Positions 44,100-61,525 of a DNA stretch of 64,000 bases are shown here, piece after piece. Origin of the DNA: Actinokineospora baliensis (lineage in GTDB: Bacteria; Actinomycetota; Actinomycetes; Mycobacteriales; Pseudonocardiaceae). The DNA is taken from assembly GCF_016907695.1 (NCBI RefSeq), contig NZ_JAFBCK010000001.1:620001-684000 (forward strand). The letters are read 5' to 3'. The stretch's first letter is position 1, and every line of letters begins with the position of its first letter. The translations under genes were made by a program, and so were the position numbers. The notes under the pieces were generated by a model that did not search any database, was not told the DNA's origin, and was given only the letters and a program-made list of their open reading frames with translations.

Positions 44100-44156
44100 G
44101 GCGGGCTGGCTTCACCAAGCGGGCACCACGCGGTGTCCTTGATCGGGTCGGGCCCC

Positions 44157-44357
44157 GCTCGGCGGACACCGAGCGAGGCACCGGCGGGCCGCGGCAGCGA
44201 GCGCTCCTCCCGCTCGGCCAGGCCGAGCGGGAGGGTGGCGGCGGCTACTCCGGCTGGATCCAGGCGGCGCGCATAAGGGATCGGCCCACCTCGCAGCTGA
44301 CCACCGTGCCCCGGCCTGGTGGCAGCGCGGAGGGGTTGACGCCATGGAGGAGGGCTC
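44157..44357 (-). pseudogene. Younger duplicated copy of eccC 3' end
   Basis: Minus-strand reading DGALLHGVNPSALPPGRGTV VSCEVGRSLMRAAWIQPE-stop (TAG at 44245) matches the last ~37 codons of EccC. Its distal part (44157-44266) is identical to 44390-44499, offset 233. Upstream of the homologous stretch the frame hits TGA. It is the middle of three serial copies. Confidence 0.75.
44207..44233. terminator. Duplicated copy of eccC terminator
   Basis: CTCCCGCTCGGC-CAG-GCCGAGCGGGAG, identical to the hairpin at 44440-44466 and 233 bases away. Confidence 0.7.
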
Positions 44358-44384
44358 CGTCGGCAGGCCTGTTTCACCACGCGT

Positions 44385-44412
44385 GCCTCGCTCGGCGGAC
44401 ACCGAGCGAGGC
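44385..44412. terminator. Distal terminator hairpin after eccC
   Basis: GCCTCGCTCGG pairs exactly with CCGAGCGAGGC (11-base arms, 6-base loop), second of two hairpins downstream of the eccC stop. Confidence 0.7.
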
Positions 44413-44439
44413 ACCGGCGGGCCGCGGCAGCGAGCGCTC

Positions 44440-44466
44440 CTCCCGCTCGGCCAGGCCGAGCGGGAG
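44440..44466. terminator. Terminator hairpin after eccC
   Basis: Perfect 12-base arms (44440-44451, 44455-44466) with CAG loop, 12 bases past the eccC stop. Confidence 0.85.
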
Positions 44467-44477
44467 GGTGGCGGCGG

Positions 44478-47400
44478 CTACTCCGGCTGGATCCAGGCGA
44501 TGTGCATGAGGGATTGGCCGACCTTGCGGCTGACCAGGGTGCCTCGGCCTGGGGGCAGCGCTGACGGTTTGACGGTGCCGAGGAGGGCGCCTTCGTCTTT
44601 GCTGCCGCTCATGACGATGCCGGGGCTGGCGATCTCGCGGAGTTTGCCCAGGACCGGGTCGAACATGGCGCGGCTGGCGCCGCCGGTGCGGCGGACGGTG
44701 ATGACGTGCAGGCCGACGTCCTTGGCCTGGGGGAGGAACTCGGCGATGGGCTGCAGCGGGTTGTTGCCCTGGGTGGCGACCAGGTCGTAGTCGTCGACGA
44801 TGACGAACAGTTCCGGGCCCTTCCACCAGGAGCGGTTCTTGAGCTGCTCCTGGGTGACGTCCGGGCCGGGGAGGCGCTTGAGCATGGAGCCCCGGACGTC
44901 CTTGATCATGTCGCCGAGCTGGTTGGAGGAGACGGCGTAGCCGAGCAGGTGCTCGGTGTTGATGTAGCCGAGCATGGTGCGCCGGTAGTCGACCAGGATG
45001 ATGACCGCTTCCTTGGGGGTGTAGCGGTCCATGATGCCGCGCACGATCACCCGCAGCAGGTTGGTCTTGCCGGACTCGCCGTCGGCGAAGGCGACGAAGT
45101 GCGGCTCGGACTCCAGGTCCAGGTACACCGGGGCCAGGTCGTTCTCGTCGACGCCGATCGGCACGAGCTTGCTGTCGCGGCGCGGGTCCTGGGCGATGAG
45201 GTCCTCGTAGGGCAGGACCTCCGGCAGCAGCCGGACCTTCGGCGCGCTGCGGCCGCGCCAGCCGGACTTGATCTTGGCGACCGCGTCCTGCACGCCACCG
45301 GCGACGTCCTCCGGGTTGCTCGACCCGTCGATGCGCGGCAGGCCGGTCAGGAAGTGCAGCTTGTCCCGCGACAGTCCGCGACCAGGCCGCCCGGCTGGCA
45401 CGTTCACCGCCACCCGACGGTCCACATCGGACTCCGACGGGTCACCGAGGCGCAGCTCGAACCGGGTGCCGAGCAGGTCCTTCAACGCGGGCCGGATCTC
45501 CGCCCAGCGGTTGGCCGCGACCACGACGTGGATGCCGTAGGACAGGCCCTGGGCGGCCAGGTTGACGACCTGCATCTCCAGCGTCTCGAACTCCTGGCGG
45601 AAGTTGAGCCAGCCGTCGACGATCAGGAAGACGTCGCCGAACAGGTCGTCCTTGAGCTCACCTCGGCGCTTGCGGTTGCGGAAGTCGGTCATCGAGTCGA
45701 TGCCCACGTCGCGGAAGCGCTGCTCGCGTTCGGTGACCAGACCGGTCACCTCGGCCACCATCCGGCGGGCCTTGTCCGGGTCGATGCGACCGGCGACCCC
45801 GCCGACGTGCGGCAGGCCCTCCAGCGTGCCGAGCGTGCCGCCGCCGAGGTCGAGGCAGTAGAACTGGACCTCTTCGGCGGTGTGCGTGAGCGCCATCGAC
45901 ATGACCAGCGTGCGCAGCATCATCGACTTGCCCGACTGCGGCCCGCCCGCGATCGCGGCGTGGCCAGCGGCACCGGAGAAGTCCGCCCACAGCAGGTCTC
46001 GCCGCTGCTCGAACGGCTTGTCGATGATGCCGAGCGGCACCTGGAGCCTGCCGTTGCCGTAGAACCCGACCGGCGACAGACCGCGGTCCTCGGTCGGCTG
46101 CAGCGGCGGGAAGAGCGTGTCGAGCGAGTTAGGCTCGTTCAGCGGCGGCAACCACACCTCGTGCGCGGGCGGACCCTGCCCCACGAGCCGGTTGACGATG
46201 ACGTCGAGCTCGCTGGCCTCTTGCCCGCCCTCGGGCTTCTTCTCCTCCTGGACCGGCTCCAGGGGCTTCTCCGGCTCCTTGGGGATCTCCACGTAGTCCG
46301 GCACGAACAGCTTCGCCCGCCGGTCACCCGAGACGGCGGCGACCGGCCCGGCCGCCTGCATGCCCGCGGGGCGGTACGGCCCGGACACGTACGCGGCCTT
46401 GAACCGAACCATGGTGCTGGTGTCGAACTTCAGGTACCCGGAGCCGGGGATCGACGGCAGCTCGAACGCGTCCGGCACGCCGATGGCCGCGCGGGACTCG
46501 GCCGCGGAGAACGTCTTGAGGCCGATCCGGTAGGACAGGTGCGAGTCGAGACCGCGCAGCTTGCCCTCTTCCAGCCGCTGCGAGGCGAGCAGCATGTGCA
46601 TCTGCAGCGACCGGCCGAGCCGTCCGATCGCGACGAACAGGTCGATGAAGTCCGGTTTGGCCGACAGCAGCTCGGAGAACTCGTCGACCACGATGAACAG
46701 CGCGGGCAGCGGGTCGAGGTCGGCGCCGTTCTCGCGCGCTTTCTCGTACTCCCAGACGTTCTTGAAGTTGCCGCCGTTCTTCAGCGCCTCCTGGCGCCGG
46801 TTCATCTCACCGGCCAGCGCGTCCTTCATGCGGTCGACCAGGGTCAGGTCGCCCTGCAGGTTGGTGATGACCGCGGCGACGTGCGGCGCGGAGTCCAACC
46901 CGAGGAAGGTCGCGCCACCCTTGAAGTCGACCAGCACGAAGTTCAGCGTCGACGACGAGTGCGTGGCCAGCATGCCCAGCACCAGCGTGCGCAGGAACTC
47001 CGACTTGCCGGACCCGGTCGCGCCGATGCACAGGCCGTGCGGGCCCATGCCCTCCACCGCCGCTTCCTTGATGTCGAGCTCGACGGCCTGGCCGAACTCG
47101 CCGACGCCGAACGGGACCCGGTAGCGGTCGCGCACCGGCCGGGGCCGCCACGCCTGCTGCACGTCGAAGGTCATCGGGTCGCCGGGGATGCCGAGCAGTT
47201 CCAGCAGCGTCGGGTTGGACAGCAGCGGTTCCTCGTCGCCGGAGTCGGCGGCCGCGGCGGAGAGCCGGTACGGGGACAGCTTGCGCGCCAACGCTTCCGC
47301 CTCGGCGACGCTGAGCACGTCCGGGCTGGCGAACCACTCCACGCCGGAGGCGCTGCGCGCGCCGAGCCGGTCCGCCTCGACCACCAGCCGCAATCCGCGC

Positions 47401-55010: not shown

Positions 55011-56645
55011 TCAGCCGCCCGGCGTCGGTTGCGGTTGTTGGACCGGCAGCGCCGACGGCGTGGTGGACGGGAACCTGCCCGCGTCGACCGGCACCACGTC
55101 GTAGGTCTGCAGCACGTCCCTGGTGTTGAGCGAGGCGCCGTTGGGCAGCAGCCGCACGATCGCGTCCGGTGCGGGCAACTGGTCGGCGAGGCCGAGCGCG
55201 GCGGCGGTCCGCTGGTCGGGGATGCCGAACTTCACGCCGCGGTCGGAGATCAGGTAGATCGGCCCGGTCGCGAAGTCCTGCGGCGAGGTGGCGCCGCGCA
55301 CGACGGCCGCCCGGCCCGGCGGCATGTAGAAGTAGTTGAGCCGCTCCCCGTCCGCGCTCGGCGTGGTCACCTCGATGGAGGCGGGCTTGCCGGTCGCGTT
55401 GCGCGGCAACGGCATCTCCTTGCCGATGTGCACCTCGGTGTGCTGTTCGGCGGTGGGGCCGGAGCCGACGATGTTCCACCCCAGGCAGGCGACGGGGTAG
55501 TTCACCGGGCTGAGCACCTCGGGGACGACCTCGGGGTAGGAGTTGTCGTCGATGGGGGGTGTGGCCGAGGAGGCCGGGATCTGGTCCGGCCGGACCTTGG
55601 TGATCTCCGCGCCGCCCTCGGTCGTGGTGAACCGGATCAGGTCCGCGGTGGTCTTCTTCACCTGCTGCACGCCGTCGACGAGCACCACGTAGTAGTCGGT
55701 GCGGCCCGCGCGCTCCACCTGCACGACCGACCCGACCGGCATGCCGTTGACGTCGACCTGGCTCTTCTCGCCCCGCCCCGGGATGGTCGGCGGGGTGAGC
55801 GCCGGGGCCTCCGGGATGGCGTTGAGCAGGCCCGTGGTGATCTGCCTGGTGGAGCTGTCCGACAGCGCGAGCGCCGCGCGGACGTTGCCCTTGCTCATGT
55901 CCACCTTGGCGCGCACCGTGTTGGCGTTCTTGATGTTCGCCGTCGCCGGGGTGCGGTAGACCAGGTAGGTGTCCTTGGTCGCGGACTTGACCAGCAGCGC
56001 TTCCTCGGCGGCCAGCTCGGGGCCGAGCTCGGTGACCCCGCCTGCCACGGTCGTCTCGATCTTGTTCTCGGCGGCCTTGTTGTTCAGGCTCGGGTCGAGC
56101 TTGTACTCGTCGCACACCGCCCAGTCGGCGCCGATGCGCTGGCCCGCGCCCGGCAGCAGCTGCGGGCCGTCCTGGATGCCGGTGAGCCGGTCGCGCGGGA
56201 TGCCGACCAGCTTGTCGTCCGGGATCACCTCGGCCTCGGTCGGCGCGGTCGTGCCGCCGCCGTCGGTCTGGCTGCCCGGCTGGCCCTGCGCGCCGGGGTT
56301 GGTGCGGGCGAGCAGCAGCAGCCGCGCCGAGGCGAGGTTGAAGGTGGGGATGAGCACCTTCCCCTTCTCGGTGTTGGTGAGCAGCACGTACACCGCGCCG
56401 GAGGGCTTGGCGATGATGATCCCGGACTCGTTGGGCAGCTTCGGCGCGGGCTTGAGCAGCCCGTAGACCAGGAAGCCGACCATGGCGACCGCGGCGATGC
56501 AGATCCCGACCACGGTGGCCCTGCTGTGCGTGCGCATCGGGTCGTGCAGCATGACCGCGTCCTTGCGCACCAGGGCGGATTGCATCCGCCGCAGCACGAA
56601 GCGGTACGCCTGGACCTGGGACTTGGTTGTCGGTGTTGATGGCAT
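55011..56645 (-). CDS. eccB: Type VII secretion protein EccB
   Basis: 544 residues. Conserved N-terminus (MPSTPTTKSQVQAYRFVLRR, residues 1-20), one span (ATVVGICIAAVAMVGFLVYG, about 46-65) and a large periplasmic part of EccB repeats with Cys in DWAVCDEYKLD and PVACLGWNIV. ATG 56645 fits the family start; the open frame beyond is in the divergent eccE leader. C-terminus is Pro-rich. Confidence 0.93.
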   Translation of the reverse strand: MPSTPTTKSQVQAYRFVLRRMQSALVRKDAVMLHDPMRTHSRATVVGICIAAVAMVGFLVYGLLKPAPKLPNESGIIIAKPSGAVYVLLTNTEKGKVLIPTFNLASARLLLLARTNPGAQGQPGSQTDGGGTTAPTEAEVIPDDKLVGIPRDRLTGIQDGPQLLPGAGQRIGADWAVCDEYKLDPSLNNKAAENKIETTVAGGVTELGPELAAEEALLVKSATKDTYLVYRTPATANIKNANTVRAKVDMSKGNVRAALALSDSSTRQITTGLLNAIPEAPALTPPTIPGRGEKSQVDVNGMPVGSVVQVERAGRTDYYVVLVDGVQQVKKTTADLIRFTTTEGGAEITKVRPDQIPASSATPPIDDNSYPEVVPEVLSPVNYPVACLGWNIVGSGPTAEQHTEVHIGKEMPLPRNATGKPASIEVTTPSADGERLNYFYMPPGRAAVVRGATSPQDFATGPIYLISDRGVKFGIPDQRTAAALGLADQLPAPDAIVRLLPNGASLNTRDVLQTYDVVPVDAGRFPSTTPSALPVQQPQPTPGG

Positions 56646-56729
56646 TCTCGGCCTGCTGCTCTCCCCGTCGCGGTACGGTTCCGCAGGATAGCCGTACGGT
56701 GTCGGCTGGAAGCGGGTCTCCGGGAAACC

Positions 56730-56738
56730 TGTGGACAA
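56730..56738. promoter_or_regulatory. TGTGGACAA word upstream of eccE
   Basis: TGTGGACAA with flanking CCTGTGGACAAC, 38 bases before the eccE ATG in the eccB/eccE divergent region, as upstream of eccD. Confidence 0.35.
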
Positions 56739-56776
56739 CCCGCGCGGTGGCCGGACGAGGGGAAGAGAACGAGCGG

Positions 56777-58321
56777 ATGTCGGTGAGCACGTCTGGACGG
56801 CACGGCCGCACGCCTCCCCCTGGTCAGCCACCCCGCCCGGCAGGCCCGCCGCCGGGACCCGGTCCCGGCAGGCCACCCGGCCCACCGCACGGTGCACAAC
56901 CTCCTGGCGCACAACCCCCGGGCGCACAGCCTCCCGGCGCACAGCCCCCTGGCGCCAAGCCACCCGGCCCGCCGCCGGGCAACCAGCCTCCCGGCCCGCC
57001 GCACGGCGGCCAACCGCCGGGACCGCCCCCCGGGGCCAAGCCACCCGGTCCGCCGCCGGGCGCCCAGCCGCCGCGGCCCGCCACCCGGGTGTCCGCGCGC
57101 AGGCGCAACCGGGGCGCGAGCCTCGGCGCGCTGCCGGTGGCGAACCTCGTGGTGCTGGAGGTCGGCGTCGCGATCGGCTTGGTGCTGCTGGCGATCGACG
57201 TGAAGCTGGTCTACGTCGCGATCGCGGTCGCCGCCGTCGCGCTGGTGGTCGCGTTCCTGCGGTGGCGCGGCCGCTGGTTCACCCAGTGGATCGGCCTGAC
57301 CGTGCGCTACACGTTCCGCTCGCACTCCCGGGTCAGCAAGCCCGCTGCCCCGGTGAGCATCGAGGAGTTGGCCGCCACCGACGGGTCCGCGGTCACCGGC
57401 CCGGACGACCCCAGGGTGAGCCTGCTGCGGTTGGCCGTGCCCGACCTGGTCGTCGCGCACGGGGTCGACCACGAGCGCAGGCCGCTGGGCATGGCCTGGC
57501 ACGAGGGCACCTGGACCGCGGTGCTGCTGGTGGACCCGGCGCCCGCGCTGGTCAGCCAGGTCGGGTCGACGCCGAGCCTGCCGCTCGGCGCGCTGGCGCC
57601 GTGCCTGGAGGACCGCGGTGTGGTGCTCGACGCGATCCAGGTGATCTGGCACTGCTACCCGGGTAGCGCGGCCCTGCCGCCCAACTCCCCCGCGCTGGCG
57701 TCGTACCTGGAGGTGCTCGGCCCGCTGTCCGCGGCGGCCAGGCGCACCACCTGGGTCGCGGTGCGGCTGGACCCGAGGCGCTGCCCGGCGGCGGTCCGCG
57801 AGCGCGGCGGCGGCGTCGTCGGCGCGCACCGGGCGCTGATCGGCGCGCTGTCGCGGGTGCGCAACGCGCTGGAGTCGCGCGGGGTGCCGACCCGCCCGCT
57901 GGACCCGGACGAGCTGCTCAAGGCGGGCATCGCCGCGGCCGAGCTGACCGGGGTCGCCGGGTCGAACACCCCGGTCGGCCTGCGCGAGCGCTGGACCGGG
58001 GTCACCGCGGCGGGCATCGGGCACGCCAGCTACGCGATCACCGGCTGGCCGCAGGGCAAGGCGGCGACCACCCTCAACGCGCTGACCGGGGTGCGCGCGC
58101 TGTCGGCGACCGTGGCGATGTCGATCTCGCCGGGTGCTGACGACGGCCAGGTCGGCCTGCGCGGCCTGGTCCGGGTCAGCGCCCGCACGCCGGAGGAGCT
58201 CAGCCACGCCGACGAGCGGCTCGACGCGATCTCCGACCGGCTGGGGATCACCCTGACCCCGCTGCGCGGCCTGCAGGTCGCCGGGCTGGCCGCCACGCTG
58301 CCGCTGGGAGGGCAGGCATGA
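56777..58321 (+). CDS. eccE: Type VII secretion protein EccE
   Basis: 514 residues. Cytoplasmic N-terminus of about 95 residues built of PPGAQ/PPGAK-type proline repeats, two spans (ANLVVLEVGVAIGLVLLAID and VYVAIAVAAVALVVAFLRW) and the EccE domain (ISIEELAATD... DRLGITLTPLRGLQVAGLAA). ATG 56777 is the first Met after the eccB/eccE leader. The mycobacterial ESX-4 lacks eccE, so this locus has a fuller set. Ends ATGA into the repeat block. Confidence 0.88.
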   Translation: MSVSTSGRHGRTPPPGQPPRPAGPPPGPGPGRPPGPPHGAQPPGAQPPGAQPPGAQPPGAKPPGPPPGNQPPGPPHGGQPPGPPPGAKPPGPPPGAQPPRPATRVSARRRNRGASLGALPVANLVVLEVGVAIGLVLLAIDVKLVYVAIAVAAVALVVAFLRWRGRWFTQWIGLTVRYTFRSHSRVSKPAAPVSIEELAATDGSAVTGPDDPRVSLLRLAVPDLVVAHGVDHERRPLGMAWHEGTWTAVLLVDPAPALVSQVGSTPSLPLGALAPCLEDRGVVLDAIQVIWHCYPGSAALPPNSPALASYLEVLGPLSAAARRTTWVAVRLDPRRCPAAVRERGGGVVGAHRALIGALSRVRNALESRGVPTRPLDPDELLKAGIAAAELTGVAGSNTPVGLRERWTGVTAAGIGHASYAITGWPQGKAATTLNALTGVRALSATVAMSISPGADDGQVGLRGLVRVSARTPEELSHADERLDAISDRLGITLTPLRGLQVAGLAATLPLGGQA

Positions 58322-58467
58322 GCCCCGGCGGTACGCCGTACAACCACAGCGCGGTGCCGCGCGAGAACCGCACCCACCCGTTCGCGGCTGGGAGAACGCG
58401 CATGATGCCGAGCCGCGGCACCCGCGTGCTCCCCGCTGCGCGGTCATCGCTGGGAGGGCAGACATGA
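58318..58467 (+). CDS. Mini-ORF in repeat unit 1
   Basis: 49 codons from ATG to TGA: MSPGGTPYNHSAVPRENRTH, then PFAAGRTRMMPSRGTRVLPA and ARSSLGGQT. Its ATG lies inside the eccE stop (ATGA) and its stop overlaps the next ATG. Predicted basic, no hydrophobic segment. Coupling and GGGAGG ribosome sites are what would be needed for expression, but no homologue is known to me and it may simply be a repeat artefact. Confidence 0.35.
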   Translation: MSPGGTPYNHSAVPRENRTHPFAAGRTRMMPSRGTRVLPAARSSLGGQT

Positions 58468-58613
58468 GCCCCGGCGGTACGCCGTACAACCACAGCGCGG
58501 TGCCGCGCGAAAACCGCACCCACCCGTTCGCGGCTGGGAGAACGCGCATGATGCCGAGCCGCGGCACCCGCGTGCTCCCCGCTGCGCGGTCATCGCTGGG
58601 AGGGCAGACATGA
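58464..58613 (+). CDS. Mini-ORF in repeat unit 2
   Basis: Same 49-residue product as unit 1, with the same ATGA overlaps. Confidence 0.35.
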   Translation: MSPGGTPYNHSAVPRENRTHPFAAGRTRMMPSRGTRVLPAARSSLGGQT

Positions 58614-58759
58614 GCCCCGGCGGTACGCCGTACAACCACAGCGCGGTGCCGCGCGAAAACCGCACCCACCCGTTCGCGGCTGGGAGAACGCGCATGATGC
58701 CGAGCCGCGGCACCCGCGTGCTCCCCGCTGCGCGGTCATCGCTGGGAGGGCAGACATGA
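58610..58759 (+). CDS. Mini-ORF in repeat unit 3
   Basis: Same 49-residue product; its TGA overlaps the ATG of the 242-residue gene at 58756. Confidence 0.35.
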   Translation: MSPGGTPYNHSAVPRENRTHPFAAGRTRMMPSRGTRVLPAARSSLGGQT

Positions 58760-59484
58760 GTTCGAGCCGGTTGCTCGACACCAAGGGCGGTGCCGGGGGC
58801 ATCGCGCCGGAGTTCCTCGTCTCGCCGGACATGCTCGACGCGGTCAGCCCGTCCGGGGACCGCGGCGGGATGGTGCTCGGGTCGGGGCTGCAGGGCGAGC
58901 CGCTGACGATCTCCGCGCTGCGGCCCGCGCCGACCAGGATCGTGCTGGTGGGTGGTCTGTACCTGGCCAGGCAGGTGGCGCTGCGGGCGATGGCCGTCGG
59001 CGCCTGGGTGGTGGTCGCCACCGGGCGGCCCGCCGCCTGGCAGGTGCTGCAGAAGGCCGCGGGCACCGGGCCGGACGGCCGTCCCGCGCCCCTGGTGCAG
59101 ATCCGCAGGCTCAGCCCGGTGGAGCTGCCGCGGCCGTCGGAGGACGGTCCGCTGCTGGTCGTGCACGACGGCGGGCCCACCCCGCAGGAGCTGTTCCCGC
59201 CCCGCTCGCCGTGGCAGACCACGGTCTACGTGCTGCCCTACATGCACCCGCAGGCGGGCGCGACGGCCAACGCCGCCGACCTGGTGCTGCTGCAGCGGCT
59301 CCCGGTCGGGCAGGCCCAGTTGGCCGCGCGGGTGTGGCGGCTGCCCCCGCCGATGGTCCAGCAGTTGACCACGCTCGCCGACGACCAGGTGGTCGCGCTG
59401 GGCAAGAACCTGTGGCGCCCGCTGCGGTTGGTGACCACGCAGAAGGAACAGCAGATCCTGGGCCCGGTCCGCCGAGGAGACTAG
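58756..59484 (+). CDS. ESX-locus protein downstream of eccE, unknown
   Basis: 242 residues, soluble, mixed alpha/beta. TRIVLVGGLYLARQVALRAM (about 63-82) resembles a Rossmann-like strand-loop-helix, followed by WVVVATGRPAAWQVLQKAAG and LLVVHDGGPTPQELFPPRS. No known catalytic motif. Coupled by ATGA to the repeat block and hence to eccE. Possibly a cytoplasmic accessory of the ESX complex (position only). Confidence 0.6.
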   Translation: MSSSRLLDTKGGAGGIAPEFLVSPDMLDAVSPSGDRGGMVLGSGLQGEPLTISALRPAPTRIVLVGGLYLARQVALRAMAVGAWVVVATGRPAAWQVLQKAAGTGPDGRPAPLVQIRRLSPVELPRPSEDGPLLVVHDGGPTPQELFPPRSPWQTTVYVLPYMHPQAGATANAADLVLLQRLPVGQAQLAARVWRLPPPMVQQLTTLADDQVVALGKNLWRPLRLVTTQKEQQILGPVRRGD

Positions 59485-59896
59485 CGTCACAAAGGTGCGC
59501 GCAGGGTAATCACCCGGGTTCTCCGCGTGGTTTTCCGAGCCCATTTTCCGCGCTACCGTCCCGCAACCGTCGCGCACCGGATCCGAATACGAACACCCGG
59601 TGTCCTAAACCGGCGACCCCCGGTGGGATTCCGGACGTCCGTCACACCGTCCGCAACCGTGATGCCTCAGAAGTACCCCCGATCGGCCGAACTGACAGAC
59701 CCGAGCGGAGTTAACGGGTAACCGAGAGCTCCGTGACTGTCGGTCTCAGGCACACGAACGGGTCGGTCCCCCCTTCGCGGCACGAGATCACCGGAGAAGG
59801 AAAGTCGTCGTTTCCGCGCGCCTGCTCCTCCCGGTGATCCCGTTTCCGCGAAACGGTCCGGCACGCTTGGTGTCCTCCTGTGAAGGAGTCCAAGGA
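59485..59896. other. Leader region before the subtilase gene
   Basis: 412 bases without a credible gene. Near 59700 a nested short hairpin CGGAGTTAACGGGTAACCG (CGGAG/CTCCG and GTTA/TAAC) may belong to a structured 5' leader. A c-di-AMP (ydaO) riboswitch was considered and not supported. No terminator was found right after 59484. Confidence 0.4.
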
Positions 59897-61525
59897 ATGG
59901 GTATGTCTCGCGCCGCACGGATGCGGCGAATCGGCGGAATCGGTCTCGCGGTCACCGCGACGGTCGCCACCGCCGCTGTCGGTTTCAGTCTGTCCAACTC
60001 GGCCACGGCCGCCGAAGGCCCCATCCTGGGTGCCGACAAGCCGACCGCCATCGCGGGCAGCTACATCGTCGTCCTCAAGGACGGGGTCTCCGCCGCGGCG
60101 GCCACCTCGACCTCCGACGGCATCACCAAGAAGTTCGGCGGCACCATCAAGCAGCGCTTCTCCCAGACGGTGAAGGGCTACTCGGCCAAGATGACCGAGC
60201 AGCAGGCCAAGTACACCGCGGCGGACCCGTCGGTCGCCTACGTCGAGGCCGACCAGAAGGTCGTCGCCAGCGCCGACCAGCTGACCCCGCCGTCGTGGGG
60301 CCTCGACCGCGTCGACCAGGCCGCGCTGCCGCTGAACAACAAGTACACCTACGCCACCACCGCGTCGAACGTGAACGTCTACGTCATCGACACCGGCGTC
60401 AACCTCACGCACGCCGACTTCGGCGGGCGCGCGGTCAGCGGCACCGACAAGGTGGACAACGACAACAACGCCACCGACTGCAACGGCCACGGCACGCACG
60501 TGGCGGGCACCATCGCGGGCAGCACCTACGGCGTCGCCAAGGCCGCCAAGATCATCGGCGTCCGGGTGCTCGACTGCAACGGCTCCGGCAGCACCGCCGG
60601 GGTCATCGCCGGTGTCGACTGGGTGACCGCGAACCGGGTCAAGCCCGCCGTGGCCAACATGAGCCTCGGCGGCGCCGCCTCCACCGCGCTCGACCAGGCC
60701 GTGCAGCGCTCCATCGCCGCGGGCGTCACCTACGCGGTGGCCGGTGGCAACTCCAACGCCAACGCCTGCTCGTACTCCCCGGCCCGCGTGCCGGAGGCGA
60801 TCACCGTCGGCGCCACCACGAAGACCGATGCCCGCGCCAGCTTCTCCAACTACGGCACGTGCACCGACATCTTCGCCCCGGGCGAGGGCATCACCTCGGC
60901 GTGGATCGGCGGCACCACCGCCAAGAACACCATCTCCGGCACCTCGATGGCTTCCCCGCACGTGGCGGGCGTGGCCGCGCTCTACCTGGCCACCAACCCG
61001 AACGCCACCCCGGCGCAGGTCGCCACCGCCCTGCTGGGCGCCGCGGCCACCGGCAAGGTCACCAACGAGGGCACCGGCTCGCCGAACAAGCTGCTGCAGG
61101 TCGTCGCGGCCCCCACCACGACGCCCACCCCGACCCCGACGCCCACGCCCACCCCGACCCCCACGCCGACCCCGGTCGGCTGCGCCGCGGTCACCGCCGC
61201 GACCAAGGTCACCATCCCGGACATGGGCGCCGCGGTCACCAGCCAGGTCACCGTCAACTGCACCGGCAAGGCCGACGTGGCCAGCAAGGTCACCGTCGAC
61301 GTCATCCACACCTACCGCGGTGACATCAGCATCGACCTGATCGCGCCGGACGGCACCACCTACCGGCTGAAGAACACCTCCACCAGCGACTCGGCGGACA
61401 ACATCAAGGAGACCTACACGGTCAACCTGTCCGCCAAGAACGCCGCAGGCATCTGGAAGCTGTCGGTCAAGGACGGCTACAAGGCCGACGTCGGCTACCT
61501 CAACAGCTGGACCCTCGACGTCTGA
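59897..61525 (+). CDS. Secreted subtilase with inhibitor and P domain
   Basis: 542 residues. Signal peptide ([20 protein letters not shown], 15-34), inhibitor I9 propeptide (about 50-125; [10 protein letters not shown] ... AYVEADQKV), S8 catalytic domain with Asp165 ([13 protein letters not shown]), His198 (NGHGTHVAG) and Ser350 ([13 protein letters not shown]), a TPTP repeat linker and a C-terminal proprotein-convertase P domain ([16 protein letters not shown] ... [10 protein letters not shown]). GAAGGAG 8 bases before ATG 59897. Exported protease, likely for nutrient or wall protein processing. Confidence 0.93.

Follow-up and report, generated by a model that had tools for sequence, protein, structure and literature searches.

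In the window analysed here (the whole stretch of 64,000 nucleotides of Actinokineospora baliensis DNA), the gene for the type VII secretion protein EccE is linked to the 242-aa gene that follows it by three tandem copies of a 146-bp unit, each encoding a 49-codon mini-ORF that starts on the stop codon of the frame before it. Judged by its layout, the array is best read as working like the MIRU insertions of mycobacteria, without being dispersed here, and as a coupling-preserving relay the phase of which would be re-set by every unit. We consider it likely that ribosomes are handed along this relay and that translation of the downstream gene (the partner, below) is thereby kept coupled to that of eccE, the encoded peptides themselves being probably devoid of function.

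The eccE ORF runs on the forward strand from its first in-frame start at 56627 to 58321, and its product matches Pfam PF11203 (E = 4.6e-29) and NCBIfam TIGR03923 (194 bits for a cut-off of 108). Start codons were taken throughout from ORF logic and are neither annotated nor measured starts; as inferred from the sequence, the real start of eccE may be the ATG at 56777. Imperfect tandem repeats with units of 15-30 bp occupy positions 56872-57088, in the Pro/Gly-rich N-terminal part of the ORF. The TGA of eccE (58319-58321) overlaps the ATG of unit 1, and the array spans the distance from there to the ATG of the partner gene (58756..59484, forward strand), which overlaps the stop codon of the third mini-ORF. 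Mini-ORFs 1 (58318..58467), 2 (58464..58613) and 3 (58610..58759), all on the forward strand and listed with an identical 49-codon peptide, correspond to units at 58318-58463, 58464-58609 and 58610-58755, respectively. ATGA is found at 58318, 58464, 58610 and 58756, the TGA of one frame overlapping the next ATG (a -4 nt overlap at every junction), and GGGAGG lies 6 nt ahead of all four starts. The ribosome site for unit 1 sits inside eccE, the tail of which (CGCTGGGAGGGCAGGCATGA, 58302..58321, forward strand) carries that site and the ATGA ahead of the unit and is one base off the 3' edge of every unit. TRF reported a period of 146 with 3.1 copies and 99% matches over 58302-58760, so that its array begins 16 bases ahead of the first ATG; the 3' edge of the repeat (CGCTGGGAGGGCAGrCATGA) is common to the eccE tail at 19 of 20 bases. 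The only variable site among the units is position 48, where unit 1 differs from the identical units 2 and 3 (G/A, yielding the synonymous GAG/GAA). The three tandem units with their GGGAGG sites, 49-codon frames and ATGA overlaps, as well as the single synonymous difference, had been reported in a preliminary description of this DNA and are confirmed by the sequence, the ORF list and TRF. The same description held that coupling survives changes in repeat number, which is correct as read from the sequence: since 146 is 2 mod 3 and the frame is re-set at each ATGA, the chain would stay intact at any number of units.

That the tandem array exceeds chance is beyond doubt. Taken alone, the open 49-codon chain exceeds chance weakly (0.17 in shuffles with a random frame), and the weight of the case thus rests on relatives. 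A second tandem repeat is present in the window at 44152-44595, where TRF found two 233-bp copies (89% matches), each with a short minus-strand frame ending in AWIQPE and a stop.

Junctions between eccE and the partner were parsed in relatives by a script that looked for a start overlapping the eccE stop, read that frame to its own stop, and repeated these steps until the partner was reached. A first survey of 213 loci, less 53 duplicates and 4 loci without eccE, yielded 156 distinct junctions, among which were 138 direct nTGA overlaps, 17 chains of mini-ORFs and a single junction (L153) without an overlapping start at the eccE stop. There the stop codon of eccE is TAG; TAGTG provides the start of a 22-codon ORF, which meets the partner in an ATGA. 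A second survey covered 30 genomes from thinly represented genera, of which one lacked eccE and two had already been counted; its 29 junctions comprised 26 direct overlaps, two chains and one exception (L344, from a draft genome), in which the mini-ORF of a 46-bp insert (1 mod 3) runs 17 nt into the partner before it stops, breaking the chain. The family total came to 183 distinct junctions, 162 with a direct nTGA overlap and 21 with an insert, and a recount of 243 loci with another duplicate key (the last 150 bases of eccE) again returned 183, 162 and 21. Twenty of the 21 inserts are chained, 19 by exact nTGA overlaps and L153 by TAGTG and then ATGA; each consists of one mini-ORF, or three in the array described here, leading from the eccE stop to an overlap with the partner start. 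Per unit, the length of the insert is 2 mod 3 in all cases save L344. In the 162 direct cases the first residue of the partner lies between -15 and +12 nt of the start of the overlap, and in none at +15 nt or beyond, so that none of these overlaps conceals an insert read in frame with the partner, and the three frame classes hold 20, 1 and 0 inserts.

The inserts range from 23 to 185 bp per unit (8 to 62 codons), L347 and L348 measuring 185 and 125 bp, and in all 17 chains examined for it the start of the partner has a Shine-Dalgarno-like 4-mer ahead of it. Their sequences and peptides are mostly unrelated, with likeness confined to clades (four Amycolatopsis; L190 and L206; genus g4) or to a shared element motif considered below. 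Within genus g4 (L054, L344, L347 and L348), sister genomes vary in both the number and the kind of repeats that they carry at this junction, and in one of them the chain is broken. Given a start/stop overlap at both ends, shuffles with a random frame placed the chance of a clean chain at 0.15-0.33 per insert. For the unit described here, an open mini-ORF is in itself not improbable (0.49 with the length fixed), which counts against the relay reading. Over the 12 sequence groups of the first survey the chance product is 2.2e-8, against 1.9e-6 for the frame alone and 3.9e-6 if inserts bearing the motif are lumped; these products are rough, as the insertion events are not all independent, and they omit L153, L344, L347 and L348, of which L344 counts against. 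Together, these figures say that the reading phase of the inserts is kept by something, and that what the inserts have in common is that they lead from eccE to the partner.

The partner is an unnamed and highly conserved gene, present downstream in all 16 genomes of the genus group, our own included. Its product has no match in Pfam or NCBIfam, and a search by sequence found no solved structure. An AF2 model of moderate quality (pLDDT 67.8, with the first 38 residues below 50) and its fold matches are RecA-like, of the VirB4/HerA/FtsK type. The protein is thus predicted to have a RecA-like ATPase fold in general, fold matches being indicative of fold and not of function, and the Walker A motif G....GK[ST] is absent from all 22 aligned partner sequences. 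Over 56627-58318, EccE itself scores 46.5 bits against the NCBIfam SCO6880 family, below the cut-off of 60, and faintly matches a VirB4-like conjugation ATPase with 12.4 bits, for a cut-off of 325. Taken with the fold of the partner, these matches hint that EccE and its partner together may resemble a whole VirB4.

At 13 of the 31 loci examined in other families of the order (L316, L317, L319, L321, L323, L324, L327-L331, L333 and L334), EccE and the partner lie in one ORF of 611-870 codons from stop to stop, of which the partner forms the C-terminal part. All 13 fusions belong to family f15, three more loci of which (genus g81) are separate, and the one fusion that was checked (L316) carries an EccE domain above the TIGR03923 cut-off. 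Of the separate pairs in other families, 17 of 18 overlap by nTGA. As the chained inserts of relatives are mostly unrelated, and as other families either overlap or fuse the two genes, it is the coupling, and not the peptide, that looks conserved. The suggestion in the preliminary description that the repeat tracks a translational coupling signal is thereby supported.

In the relay as we picture it, the direct overlap of eccE and partner would be the ancestral state, and a ribosome ending eccE at the array would reinitiate at the ATG that follows, three times in succession, before reaching the partner. PMC10666635 reports that coupling in E. coli and Haloferax is nearly lost with gaps of about 20 nt, and that short overlaps are enriched for subunits of complexes. 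An insert of at least 23 bp would thus be expected to uncouple the pair unless itself translated, and the array would answer this by consisting of units that can each be translated. Inserts breaking the chain would mostly have been lost by selection because EccE and the partner, which form a single polypeptide at some loci of another family, would be two halves of one functional unit and would have to be made in step. The three copies could all descend from a single insert that was duplicated in tandem by way of the 20-base repeat at its edge. Such growth would be tolerated since the frame is set anew in every unit, and a change in partner dosage with copy number, if any, would be a side effect. 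With a ribosome site in each unit, the partner could also start afresh without coupling. A bolder version of the relay, in our judgement possible but doubtful, would make the partner an overlooked obligate half of EccE (predicted to be VirB4/HerA-like, with Walker A lost) that is produced one-for-one with it; the junction would then be a natural laboratory where actinomycetes have time and again accepted inserts only as relays, and in the triple unit one would see a relay that is phase-proof and expandable and that sets the EccE:partner ratio by its copy number.

MIRUs (mycobacterial interspersed repetitive units) also form tandem arrays. The review PMC12548453, citing Supply et al. 1997, describes them as short, apparently mobile repeats that insert at start codons, where an ORF inside the repeat is coupled to the gene at -4 spacing, probably with very little effect on it. 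The array resembles them in that the ORF of the repeat is joined to a neighbouring gene by a start/stop overlap. Unlike MIRUs, which have many dispersed copies, it occupies one locus, with no dispersed copies found in the genome, and it belongs to a non-mycobacterial actinomycete, with a 146-bp unit and a 49-codon ORF. For want of dispersed copies we do not file it as a MIRU; the likeness meant here is one of arrangement. With the gene pairs that undergo termination-reinitiation at -4 overlaps, as PMC10666635 presents them, it shares ATGA overlaps, co-directional genes, a ribosome site in the upstream gene and products that are likely subunits of a complex; it differs from them in the three mini-ORFs that lie between the coupled genes. 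The coupled-pair arrangement itself is kept in relatives, as 162 direct overlaps plus 20 chains among the 183 junctions. A third comparison is with iraD, where a short upstream ORF reportedly delivers ribosomes. Such short ORFs, which supply the gene behind them with ribosomes, are treated in PMC12548453, and the likeness would lie in a short translated ORF serving to bring ribosomes to that gene; the array differs in that a long gene upstream would be the source of its ribosomes and in that its units are tandem copies. A literature search on such inserts, the genus or the gene pair, with coverage that mostly leaves out subscription papers, returned no description that we recognised.

In a comparison of the unit with the eccE tail, only the last 20 bases of the tail were shared (equalled by 3 of 1000 shuffles), besides a 13-base stretch that was not significant (80 of 1000); one half of the unit showed no likeness to the other (575 of 1000). 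The 16 genomes of the genus group include no other genome of the species, and the nearest named junction is that of the sister species Actinokineospora diospyrosa (L060, the same stretch as L030), whose partner protein is 100% identical. Its insert is shorter, with 15 codons that are at most weakly similar, and shows a weak alignment to the stretch of the unit from base 51 to base 88 (matched by 9 of 1000 shuffles with the start site included, 41 of 1000 without it), suggesting a common origin of the two inserts. A structured RNA was considered and dropped, as folding of 58440-58640 was unremarkable (z = -1.15; 24 of 200 shuffles as stable) and Rfam gave no match, none reaching the gathering score over 58000-59000. 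A consensus scan of 56400-59900 found neither a promoter, for which only a sigma-70-type consensus was used, nor a terminator.

Among other explanations, the one that survives best is that of a neutral minisatellite in a tolerant junction, where the chain would be a by-product of ATGA-edge duplication and coupling would be unneeded. Duplication through the 20-base edge does yield an ATGA per unit automatically, the probability of 0.17 for an open chain in a random frame is compatible with it, and L344 shows that a broken chain can exist. This reading is nonetheless unlikely, in that 20 of 21 inserts differing in sequence have stayed chained, and in that the direct overlap is kept at 162 junctions while other families overlap or fuse the genes.

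More improbable still is a functional 49-residue peptide, the dose of which would be set by the number of units. The open frame, the ribosome sites and the fact that the sole difference between units is synonymous speak in its favour, even though a single synonymous base has no statistical weight. When about 5.8 billion proteins were searched by a word-based method, the peptide retrieved itself and nothing else, and it is thus without conserved homologues in that set. The 146-bp unit is present at one locus of its own genome, in which the window occupies positions 620001-684000 of one 7.68-Mb contig. Among 296 other genomes of the family, with few candidates scored in each, 273 had no match and 23 had pieces of 27-73 bases only. 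A second DNA match in the own genome (33 bp, 86%) looks like chance, and a 24-base piece of the unit had no exact match in viral contigs. The sister species carries its different insert at the same site, and the other peptides found there in relatives suggest that the sequence is free. The new small peptide family tuned by copy number that the preliminary description had put forward is accordingly not supported, and the search for the unit elsewhere, which it had also raised, led to one locus and to short pieces.

We regard it as very improbable that the unit is a member of a dispersed, mobile MIRU-like element targeting coupled start codons. Such an element is seen in relatives, where the motif CGAATCATCG recurs: exact matches versus a reversed control numbered 14 versus 1 in genome G228, 29 versus 2 in G003, 14 versus 0 in G321, 8 versus 1 in G322, 4 versus 3 in G244, 3 versus 0 in G100 and 2 versus 0 in the genome of the array (G000). 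The element stands directly behind ATGA in 9 of 20 stretches, 3 of 13 from G228 (L251, L252 and L261) and 6 of 7 from G003 (L264, L265, L266, L268, L269 and L270), and in five of these nine (L251, L252, L265, L266 and L270) the TGA closes an open frame of more than 50 codons. In 20 further stretches from G000, G244, G321 and G322, it did so only in L289, the very stretch in which eccE of G322 meets its partner; G228 and G003 likewise carry the element at their eccE junctions. Some of these elements form coupled mini-ORFs and others read on as N-terminal extensions, and those of G003 are partly tandem 33-bp copies. From their dispersal behind ATGA, a MIRU-like element probably exists outside mycobacteria. 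The unit described here, however, lies at one locus and lacks the motif, and neither of the two matches in its own genome is directly behind ATGA, one having GTGA 10 bases upstream. As for an assembly artefact with fewer real units, which the identity of units 2 and 3 might suggest, the one 7.68-Mb contig and the distinguishing base in unit 1 make it equally hard to credit, and the relay reading would be unchanged even with one unit.

If the relay reading is right, this one junction would amount to an evolutionary assay of translational coupling, in which repeated insertions of mostly unrelated DNA have survived almost exclusively where their phase allows ribosomes through. The unnamed EccE-linked protein would likewise be likely to accompany EccE constantly in these bacteria, and the array would show how a tandem repeat could grow within an operon without uncoupling its genes.
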